Of a DNA stretch of 50,509 nt, positions 48,268 to 50,427 are shown one piece after another. Below the pieces are notes generated by a model that saw nothing but the letters and a program-made list of their open reading frames with translations, was not told where the DNA came from and ran no database searches. The translations under genes and the position numbers were made by a program. How positions within the stretch are numbered: position 1 is the first letter of the stretch; each line of letters begins with the position of its first letter. This DNA comes from a virus: the IMG/VR virus record IMGVR_UViG_3300021959_000071, positions 1 to 50,509 of that record. One strand, 5' to 3'.

Positions 48268-48558
48268 ATGGTTATATTTAAACGTGTAAAGAAGTTCTGT
48301 TTGCATAGCTATGAAACTGATCACACTGCGTTCACTTGCGAGTTAATAAGTCTGGTATTTGCTGTAGTAGCAAGTTTAATGTTAGCAGTAACAGCTGAAG
48401 CACCTAATATGAAATACATATACCCTGGCTTTTTTGTTAGCTGTACTGCTGCAACGTACGGTTATTATAGACGCAAGCTAGCCTGGCCAATGATATTGAC
48501 ATCGTATTATATGGTAGTAAATATATTTGGAATGGGAGTAGTATATAAAATATGGTAG
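48268..48558 (+). CDS. Small integral membrane protein (96 aa)
   Basis: Three predicted membrane helices: about 25-46 ('CELISLVFAVVASLMLAVTA'), 50-67 ('YIYPGFFVSCTAATYGYY') and 71-95 ('AWPMILTSYYMVVNIFGMGV'), with a basic N-terminus inside. Early or middle expression from the promoter at 48015. Candidates are a holin-like, exclusion or host-membrane modulating protein; three helices with short loops would suit a holin but no neighbouring lysin is visible. Confidence 0.6.
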   Translation: MVIFKRVKKFCLHSYETDHTAFTCELISLVFAVVASLMLAVTAEAPNMKYIYPGFFVSCTAATYGYYRRKLAWPMILTSYYMVVNIFGMGVVYKIW

Positions 48559-48589: not shown

Positions 48590-48605
48590 GGAACTAGCAT
48601 ATAAT
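48590..48605 (+). promoter_or_regulatory. GGAAC-N5-TATAAT promoter
   Basis: GGAAC 48590-48594, TATAAT 48600-48605; followed by a hairpin and a small ORF, then the terminator at 48809. Confidence 0.7.
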
Positions 48606-48629
48606 AAGGAAGATTAAAAGTAAAATAAA

Positions 48630-48648
48630 CACTAGCAAGTCGCTAGTG
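48630..48648 (+). other. Hairpin in untranslated leader
   Basis: CACTAGC / GCTAGTG seven-base perfect stem, five-base loop, about 18 nt downstream of the predicted +1 of the 48590 promoter. No T run. Confidence 0.5.
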
Positions 48649-48652
48649 TATG

Positions 48653-48660
48653 CATAAATA
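48653..48660 (+). promoter_or_regulatory. Late promoter CATAAATA
   Basis: Last A 7 nt before an ATG at 48667. Confidence 0.5.
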
Positions 48661-48666
48661 AATTAA

Positions 48667-48777
48667 ATGAAACAGAATAACCATATATTCACCGGTACAT
48701 ATTTACCGCAGCTCGTCACGAGCCGCAGTATCTGTACTAGACCGAATATGTCAGAAGGGAGTATGGGTCTATTTTAG
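48667..48777 (+). CDS. Possible small late ORF (36 aa)
   Basis: A 36-codon frame starting MKQNNHIFTGTYLPQ with no recognisable domain. The only support is a late box placed 7 nt before its ATG, the spacing seen at real late genes. Bases within it can also form a GCTCGT/ACGAGC hairpin, so the segment may instead be untranslated RNA. Confidence 0.35.
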   Translation: MKQNNHIFTGTYLPQLVTSRSICTRPNMSEGSMGLF

Positions 48778-48789
48778 TTAAGTTCAAAA

Positions 48790-48805
48790 GGAACATAATT
48801 ATAAT
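48790..48805 (+). promoter_or_regulatory. GGAAC-N5-TATAAT promoter facing a terminator
   Basis: GGAAC 48790-48794, TATAAT 48800-48805; predicted +1 at about 48812 lies inside the left arm of the terminator stem. Confidence 0.55.
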
Positions 48806-48808
48806 AGA

Positions 48809-48836
48809 CCTTGGCAACAACAGCCAAGGTTTTTTT
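48809..48836 (+). terminator. Intrinsic terminator
   Basis: CCTTGGC / GCCAAGG seven-base stem (48809-48815 with 48823-48829), loop AACAACA, seven T. Ends transcripts of the small-gene region before the RNA locus. Confidence 0.92.
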
Positions 48837-48856
48837 ATGTAACGAATAACAGAAAA

Positions 48857-48872
48857 GGAACTCCGATATAAT
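48857..48872 (+). promoter_or_regulatory. GGAAC-N5-TATAAT promoter for structured RNA
   Basis: GGAAC 48857-48861, TATAAT 48867-48872; predicted +1 near 48879. No gene-sized reading frame follows on this strand, so it most likely drives the RNA locus and perhaps the tRNA array. Confidence 0.75.
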
Positions 48873-48878
48873 TTAATA

Positions 48879-49290
48879 ACAGAAAAGGTCTTAAAGAGAT
48901 TGTACCTGAAACAATCGAACATCCACCGTGAATCCGTGGGTAGCAGCCAAGCTGCTAGAGGTGAGAGTTTAAAAATTGTTGTAAGAAATAAACATAGCGC
49001 GGTCTGTAAATAGTGTGCTGTGTGGCGCTGTGAAAGGCAGCATTAATGATTCGCGTGACCAGGACACCACACGTTTCTTACAATAGCTTGACAATTTAAC
49101 CTGCCTTTACGTGGCGTCAAGCATAAGTAACGTTTAAGGTTTCACAGCCTTGGGGCTAACCGTTCCGATCAACTGGCCTTATTCGCGAAACTAAATGGTT
49201 AAACTCTAAACAAACGAATCCTAGAAGCGGGCAGATGAAATTGCTTAAGTAGGCTGCCAAGGTTAAGCAAATCGTTTGTTTCTTATCTTA
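48879..49290 (+). ncRNA. Large structured non-coding RNA candidate
   Basis: About 400 nt without a plausible plus-strand gene but full of exact complementary segments. 5' hairpins: GATTGT/ACAATC (48898-48903 with 48911-48916) and TAGCAGC/GCTGCTA (48941-48947 with 48951-48957). Multi-branch domain: 9 bp 48964-48972 with 49199-49207, enclosing 10 bp 48979-48988 with 49074-49083, 6 bp 49020-49025 with 49067-49072, hairpin 49027-49030 with 49038-49041, 7 bp 49086-49092 with 49116-49122, and hairpin 49138-49161. 3' domain: 10 bp 49208-49217 with 49272-49281 enclosing a pseudoknot. It has its own promoter and lies next to tRNA genes, the usual setting of large phage RNAs such as GOLLD and ROOL. I cannot match it to a family, and no tRNA-like end was found that would make it a tmRNA. 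Confidence 0.75.
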
Positions 49291-49409
49291 CTCAAAGAAA
49301 GCCAATCCTTTAAAATCACCGAGCATGGGGTGGATTTGGTAATGCGTTGAGGACAGCGAGGGGTGCGTTGATAAGGTTGATAAGTTAATATACACCTCAA
49401 GGTTTTTAT
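49291..49409 (+). other. Spacer between structured RNA and tRNA array
   Basis: No convincing gene. CCAA/TTGG-type partial pairing (around 49303-49342) and a weak ACCT/AGGT hairpin with a short T run just before the first tRNA are visible. It may be the 3' end of the structured RNA or a processing spacer. Confidence 0.35.
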
Positions 49410-49484
49410 TCCAGAGTAGCATAACGGTAGTGCATACGACTGTTAATCGTAAAAGTGAAGGTTCGAATCCTTCCTCTGGAGCCA
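49410..49484 (+). tRNA. tRNA-Asn(GTT)
   Basis: Acceptor TCCAGAG/CTCTGGA, anticodon stem TACGA/TCGTA with loop CTGTTAA, T arm GAAGG-TTCGAAT-CCTTC, discriminator G and encoded CCA. Confidence 0.95.
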
Positions 49485-49658: not shown

Positions 49659-49748
49659 GGAAGATTGACCAGATAGGTTCTGGACTTGTTTGCTAAACAA
49701 TGGGATGGCTTTATAGCTATTAGGTTTCGATTACCTAATCTTCCTCCA
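49659..49748 (+). tRNA. tRNA-Ser(GCT)
   Basis: Class II tRNA of 90 nt with long variable arm (ATGGCTTTATAGCTAT). Acceptor GGAAGAT/ATCTTCC, anticodon loop TTGCTAA, T loop TTCGATT, encoded CCA. Confidence 0.92.
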
Positions 49749-50234: not shown

Positions 50235-50309
50235 GGGGATGTAGCTCAGAGGAAGAGCGCCGGCCTGTCACGCCGGAGGTCGCGATATCGTAATTCGTCA
50301 TTCCCGCCA
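50235..50309 (+). tRNA. tRNA-Asp(GTC) with atypical T arm
   Basis: Acceptor GGGGATG/CATTCCC, D stem GCTC/GAGC, anticodon stem CCGGC/GCCGG with loop CTGTCAC, discriminator G, encoded CCA. The T arm is unusual: GCGAT-ATCGTAA-TTCGT, with the consensus TTC-A pattern missing. Confidence 0.85.
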
Positions 50310-50315
50310 ATTTTT

Positions 50316-50423
50316 AAACTATACACATATAGCAAAATAGGTATGCTTATGGCAAAGAAACGCAGCCGAAAGGTGTCGAAGCGGAGTAAGTTGTGAGGTG
50401 CAGATCCTCACTGTGTATAGTTT
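50316..50423 (+). ncRNA. Folded RNA element between tRNA-Asp and tRNA-Ile
   Basis: A perfect 12-bp closing helix AAACTATACACA (50316-50327) with TGTGTATAGTTT (50412-50423). Inside are GCC-GAAA-GGT (a GNRA-capped hairpin) and GTGAGG-TGCAGAT-CCTCAC, a stem with a seven-base loop directly against the closing helix, which mimics the T-arm/acceptor layout of a tRNA. No anticodon arm can be defined. It may be a tRNA-like or independent small RNA. Confidence 0.55.
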
Positions 50424-50427
50424 TCAT

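Follow-up and report, generated by a model that had tools for sequence, protein, structure and literature searches.

A candidate two-part structured RNA beside a T4-like phage tRNA array contains a recurrent pseudoknot module

Phage tRNA arrays harbour RNAs without an assigned function, such as T4 RNA C and RNA D, GOLLD and ROOL. RNA C and RNA D (species 1 and 2) are stable small RNAs of about 120-140 nt within the T4 tRNA cluster, a placement similar to that of the RNA described here. GOLLD and ROOL are structured, pseudoknotted phage RNAs located near tRNA islands (PMC12286853), and HDV-like theta ribozymes occur at the 3′ ends of phage tRNAs (PMC10879173). The DNA analysed here (the window, meaning the whole stretch of 50,509 nt) is an IMG/VR record that represents a piece of a T4-like myovirus, as judged from its terminase, tail sheath, tail tube and clamp loader. 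Near a tRNA island headed by tRNA-Asn at 49410, it contains a candidate RNA of about 400 nt that resembles GOLLD and ROOL in this location but shows no sequence or covariance match to them, is shorter than GOLLD (over 800 nt) and has as its conserved part a 74-nt module, which also occurs alone. This module is a pseudoknotted RNA beside phage tRNAs, as theta ribozymes are; the latter, however, begin at the tRNA 3′ end and adopt the HDV nested double pseudoknot, whereas the module has another topology and another core. T4 sequences contain neither the module nor its invariant decamer CCUAGAAGCG, and homology to RNA C or RNA D was rejected (L064, searched with model R1, gave no match). One copy of the module (L238) sits within the intervening segment of a permuted tmRNA (RF04321), but outside the mature tmRNA, and the window itself has no tmRNA.

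The window RNA matched no family of Rfam 15, GOLLD, ROOL, OLE, tmRNA, RNase P and group I introns included, even at E ≤ 10, and neither did the module copies of other records, even at E ≤ 10 or 5 where tested. The preliminary description of the locus could not match the RNA to GOLLD or ROOL and suggested that it may be undescribed; the Rfam searches agree on both counts, and searches of open-licence papers found no account of the motif. Identity with tmRNA, RNase P or a group I intron was rejected on the missing covariance match and, for tmRNA, on its absence from the window. An HDV identity was likewise discarded: the HDV-F-prausnitzii match at 49086-49167 reaches only 20.6 bits (cut-off 44), lies in the first of the two domains defined below and, by inspection, has a P2 that cannot pair, so that the P1-P4 fold with a catalytic C in J4/2 is not obtained.

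The segment 48857-49290 contains no plus-strand ORF of at least 40 aa, in line with the initial reading that no plausible plus-strand gene occupies it, and the strong terminator noticed upstream is indeed present at 48806-48832. The GGAAC-N5-TATAAT promoter assigned to the RNA is equally real, since the motif occurs 10 times in the window, always on the plus strand, against 0.02 expected. Most of these copies sit a short way upstream of genes, and the motif is also abundant in the relatives L017 and L018 (~90-94% amino-acid identity). From the copy at 48857-48872 we predict a transcription start at about 48880, followed by a leader with a 7-bp hairpin (TAGCAGC-CAA-GCTGCTA, 48941-48957). Between the promoter and tRNA-Asn (49410) no terminator-like site was found, so the RNA is probably the head, or first product, of the tRNA-array transcript rather than a stand-alone gene. 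Of the earlier proposal of an RNA gene with its own promoter, the structured non-coding RNA and the phage promoter are thus retained, but the stand-alone status probably not. The tRNAs follow on the same strand, and in the near-identical phage L027 the array extends to 25 of them. The RNA itself has two parts, Domain I and a recurrent pseudoknot module, which are placed as follows.

48806-48832, plus strand: intrinsic terminator closing the upstream transcript (10-pair stem, then a T run)
48857-48872, plus strand: phage promoter GGAACTCCGATATAAT, one of 10 motifs with identical spacing in the window
48880-48963, plus strand: predicted 5′ leader of the RNA, from the sequence and the helix list
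48964-49207, plus strand: Domain I, with a helix excess; near-identical in L027 from 49046 on
48964-48972/49199-49207, plus strand: PA, exact helix of Domain I
48979-48988/49074-49083, plus strand: PB, exact helix of Domain I
49086-49092/49116-49122, plus strand: PC, exact helix of Domain I
49033-49040/49101-49108, plus strand: K1, long-range pairing in Domain I
49027-49035/49140-49148, plus strand: K2, long-range pairing in Domain I; 49033-49035 are common to K1 and K2
49208-49281, plus strand: pseudoknot module (Domain II), 74 nt, with covariation, recurring in at least 14 other IMG/VR records
49285-49409, plus strand: linker to the tRNA array, without terminator; 49289-49358 diverged and 49350-49409 conserved in L027
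49410-50504, plus strand: start of the tRNA array, 3′ of the RNA, tRNA-Asn first

Perfect Watson-Crick helices, with pseudoknots allowed, were counted and compared with dinucleotide shuffles. The segment 48857-49290 holds 13 helices of at least 7 bp (5.3 in shuffles), 6 of at least 8 bp (1.3), 4 of at least 9 bp (0.36) and 2 of at least 10 bp (0.07), with p ≤ 0.003. The contention that so many pairings are unlikely by chance is therefore upheld, and the four helices first quoted (PA, PB, PC and the stem 49208-49217/49272-49281) are exact. To these we add K1 and K2, by which 49027-49040 can pair with 49101-49108 and 49140-49148, and an H-type pseudoknot in 49208-49281. Domain I taken alone (48960-49207) has 4 helices of at least 8 bp versus 0.48 and 3 of at least 9 bp versus 0.13 (p < 0.001). 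Two coding stretches served as controls; one had no excess, the other 3 helices of at least 8 bp versus 0.51 (p = 0.014). Nested folding gives an unexceptional minimum free energy (z = -1.12, or -1.53 for 48960-49285), as would fit a structure held together by long-range pairings, to which such folding is blind.

Domain I may be a compact fold with long-range pseudoknots, a suggestion that draws on helix statistics and one near-identical homologue. This homologue, L027, covers the RNA from 49046 and differs by two substitutions up to about 49288, after which its linker is rearranged. A 15-mer scan with Domain I found L027 as the only record sharing the domain with the window, and neither blastn nor k-mer scans revealed a diverged homologue of it. 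Fifteen IMG/VR matches to an exact Domain I 18-mer all belong to one unrelated phage family and were dismissed as chance. A blastn search of the RNA against 50,697 phage records and 72,556 plasmids returned no homologue.

The module has the consensus outer stem, CCUAGAAGCG, S1 (5 bp), AUGAA, S2 (4-8 bp), a loop ending in NGG, S1′, AAGG, S2′ and outer stem, where the crossing of S1 and S2 creates the H-type pseudoknot. Positions 49207-49281 of the window fit this full pattern, outer stem included, with UAGG ahead of S1′, and are arranged as listed.

49208-49217/49272-49281, plus strand: outer stem closing the module, exact helix
49220-49229, plus strand: invariant CCUAGAAGCG, unchanged in every full copy of the module; L238 has one nested copy that is degenerate
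49230-49234, plus strand: S1 5′ strand GGCAG, pairing with CUGCC at 49254-49258
49235-49239, plus strand: conserved AUGAA loop (alignments A1 and A2)
49241-49248, plus strand: S2 5′ strand UUGCUUAA, pairing with UUAAGCAA at 49263-49270
49250-49253, plus strand: conserved UAGG preceding S1′, from copy comparison
49254-49258, plus strand: S1 3′ strand CUGCC, covarying with the S1 5′ strand
49259-49262, plus strand: AAGG between S1′ and S2′, invariant, though itself part of the scan pattern
49263-49270, plus strand: S2 3′ strand UUAAGCAA, complementary to the S2 5′ strand

Scanning IMG/VR with the pattern CCTAGAAGCG-N5-ATGAAA (49220-49240) recovered L027 as well as phages in which the similarity is confined to the final 74 nt, with other stem sequences. 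A second, looser pattern in which complementarity was not required gave 17 distinct sequences, six with at least 4/5 S1 pairs and eleven with at most three; one of the eleven, L063, is nevertheless a true copy, in which the 3′ strand of an outer copy had been scored. Five of the six high-S1 sequences also form S2, and four of those five have a long outer stem. The sixth, L026, is an inner nested copy whose S2 partner lies farther downstream, past the AAGG of the outer copy. S2 and the outer stem had played no part in the selection; both are present in the true hits, and chance hits mostly have neither. A second module is nested inside the first in three lineages: L026/L028, L063 and, in degenerate form, L238.

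Across 12 copies, including members found by inspection, S1 is paired in 59/60 cells and is built from nine different 5-mers. Its nine unique pairs fill 44/45 cells, compared with a mean of 26.4 and a maximum of 41 after swapping of the 3′ strands. The pair counter applied to alignment A2 found 96.7% of cells paired, versus 23-47% when slid, with changes on both sides in 4/5 pairs. In six single modules S2 has six different sequences, all complementary, and the S2 and outer-stem sequences differ almost everywhere between copies while complementarity is kept. Three independent helices of the module (S1, S2 and the outer stem) show compensatory change. The preliminary description had suggested that homologues be examined for covariation, with conservation of a reading frame instead of pairing as the contrary outcome; in the 3′ module pairing is kept by compensatory change and no frame is preserved, whereas Domain I has only its near-identical counterpart in L027 to offer. 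A mini-ORF that would open at AUGAA can be dismissed, as start codon and frame vary among copies.

A covariance model seeded with six copies, the window's included, finds the module once in each of at least 14 IMG/VR records besides the window, among the matches listed; as the scans used exact patterns, this census is a lower bound. The window copy, being part of the seed, scores 64.1 bits at 49207-49281, and the non-seed copies L029, L063, L238 and L026 score 31-36 bits. A second match in L045 (6309-6384) has the look of a coding region and was set aside. Among the phages with the module are some of high GC content and one whose terminase shares only 35% identity with that of the window; unrelated flanks, GC content and distant terminases argue that the module lineages may be independent. 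A relaxed CTAGAAGCG scan (GAAGCG... only, 81 stretches) gave no new member, which indicates strict conservation of the 10-mer. Three matches in 84,980 prokaryote species genomes were not modules by the pairing filter, and module queries against isolate phages returned nothing convincing.

The module was seen in about eight contexts, usually between tRNAs, and in 11/14 records it is enclosed or adjoined by a tRNA array or a tmRNA of the same strand. The entire spacer between tRNA-Lys and tRNA-Asp is taken up by the module in L035 and L053, where the 20-bp outer stem begins at the CCA of tRNA-Lys and reaches into the first bases of tRNA-Asp; a 13-bp outer stem likewise makes it fill a tRNA spacer in L028. 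It lies among tRNAs, on their strand, in L026, L041, L043, L045 and L055, and upstream of them, on their strand, in L050. The tmRNA around the L238 copy was recognised in a 651-nt search by alpha_tmRNA (E 1e-8) and, 2 bits below the cut-off, by tmRNA_permuted (E 1e-7). The module of L034 is a free-standing gene, about 95 nt long and equipped with a terminator and a TG-extended -10 promoter; no tRNA was found in its 11.9-kb locus. Intergenic copies with no tRNA to process occur in L029 and L063. Each phage record has one copy or locus, although arrays hold 20 or more tRNAs. The module is missing from the close relatives L017 and L018, as searched with the covariance model; these carry a small ORF and tRNA-Tyr at the locus of the window RNA, which points to an RNA that is dispensable or exchangeable.

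On balance, we propose that a two-part, structured non-coding RNA of about 400 nt is encoded at the head of the tRNA array, is freed as a stable product and acts in trans. The RNA would be transcribed from about 48880 by the phage's own GGAAC-N5-TATAAT promoter and released by tRNA processing (RNase P and 3′ endonucleases) as a stable product that may act in trans during infection, comparable to T4 RNA C and RNA D beside the T4 tRNAs. The module would form an H-type pseudoknot that caps a variable outer stem and offers, in its invariant core, a surface to which a translation- or tRNA-related partner could bind. The free-standing gene of L034 favours a product acting in trans, and this one example is the main ground on which we consider such a role the most likely. 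Within CCUAGAAGCG, C-UAGAAGC-G could form a T-loop, with U1 and A5 suitably placed. The T-loop is a fold seen in tRNA elbows and in elbow-binding RNAs. In addition, CUAGAAGC (49220-49229) may resemble the UUAGAAGC loop of the GTPase-associated centre of 23S rRNA. More tentatively, the module could define a phage-specific class of small RNAs whose T-loop-like core targets the tRNA or ribosome machinery by mimicking the elbow or the GTPase centre, or else a new class of self-cleaving ribozyme; phages would carry it on the tips of stems within tRNA arrays, inside tmRNA precursors and as a separate sRNA.

The place of the module in spacers and in a tmRNA precursor makes a cis-acting processing element the main rival reading. 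Such an element would serve to cut tRNA-array and permuted-tmRNA precursors, either as a self-cleaving ribozyme of an undescribed kind or by offering a landing site to an RNase. The tRNA-to-tRNA stems of L035 and L053, the filled spacer of L028 and the L238 copy inside the intervening segment all suit such an element; theta ribozymes at phage tRNA 3′ ends provide a precedent (PMC10879173), and the extent of invariant sequence is compatible with a catalytic core. There is, however, nothing to process at the free-standing L034 or the intergenic L029 and L063, a single copy per record contrasts with arrays of 20 or more tRNAs, and Rfam holds no matching ribozyme, the weak HDV match being in Domain I and devoid of P2. 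We regard this possibility as doubtful.

It is unlikely that Domain I and the module together form an ornate GOLLD/ROOL-like RNA, copies of which would assemble by themselves into a multimer such as the homo-oligomeric cage of those families. The phage niche with adjoining tRNA genes is shared (PMC12286853), long helices and long-range pairings are numerous, and the 8-nt palindromes CATTAATG (49041-49048) and TTCGCGAA (49182-49189) could kiss, but two such palindromes are close to chance expectation. Rfam gives no match to GOLLD, ROOL or OLE, the window RNA is clearly below GOLLD size, and the module exists on its own at about 75 nt. Less probable still is a small mobile RNA-coding insert at the hairpin tips of stable-RNA genes, with Domain I as an unrelated neighbouring structure; a constant core within wholly different outer stems, the nested double copies of L026, L063 and L238 and the absence from close relatives would agree with mobility, the single locus per record would not. 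Chance pairing in a non-functional spacer, or a disguised coding region, is the least credible reading: apart from the non-significant MFE z-score, it faces the helix excess of Domain I, the absence of any conserved frame, the retention of the RNA next to a rearranged linker in L027 and the covariation of the module, for which it is already contradicted.

What is new here is a compact RNA family of about 75 nt, supported by covariation, across very different phages. Its small size makes the module amenable to structure determination, cleavage assays and pull-downs, and as a concrete search motif it makes the role of non-tRNA genes in tRNA arrays directly testable.

Several further observations were made in these records. 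L238 982-1501 is a permuted tmRNA in a viral contig, with the module in an intervening segment of about 375 nt and a predicted tag ANSNFAPSGFALAA; another permuted tmRNA, above the Rfam cut-off, lies far from the module at 48704-48943 of the L035 record (G008), a 170-kb phage contig. A second spacer of L035 (124-252), also present in L053, has a 20-bp stem joining tRNA-Glu and tRNA-Lys around a different core of about 87 nt and perhaps hides another RNA. L017 14272-14635 and L018 13354-13960 mark an exchange hotspot, where the window has the RNA, tRNA-Asn and tRNA-Thr. In the window, 48590-48832 is a second hairpin-rich non-coding stretch and a candidate small RNA, with its own GGAAC-N5-TATAAT promoter (48590) and the terminator 48806-48832; among all 326-nt segments, the one starting at 48412 is the richest in helices of at least 8 bp. 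A probable tRNA-Ser (GCT) with a long variable arm at 49659-49748 escaped both ARAGORN and, at its cut-off, the Rfam tRNA model. An element at 50309-50427 that is closed by a stem (AACTATACACA...TGTGTATAGTT) and includes a T-arm-like hairpin drew no tRNA call; it is 99% conserved in L027.
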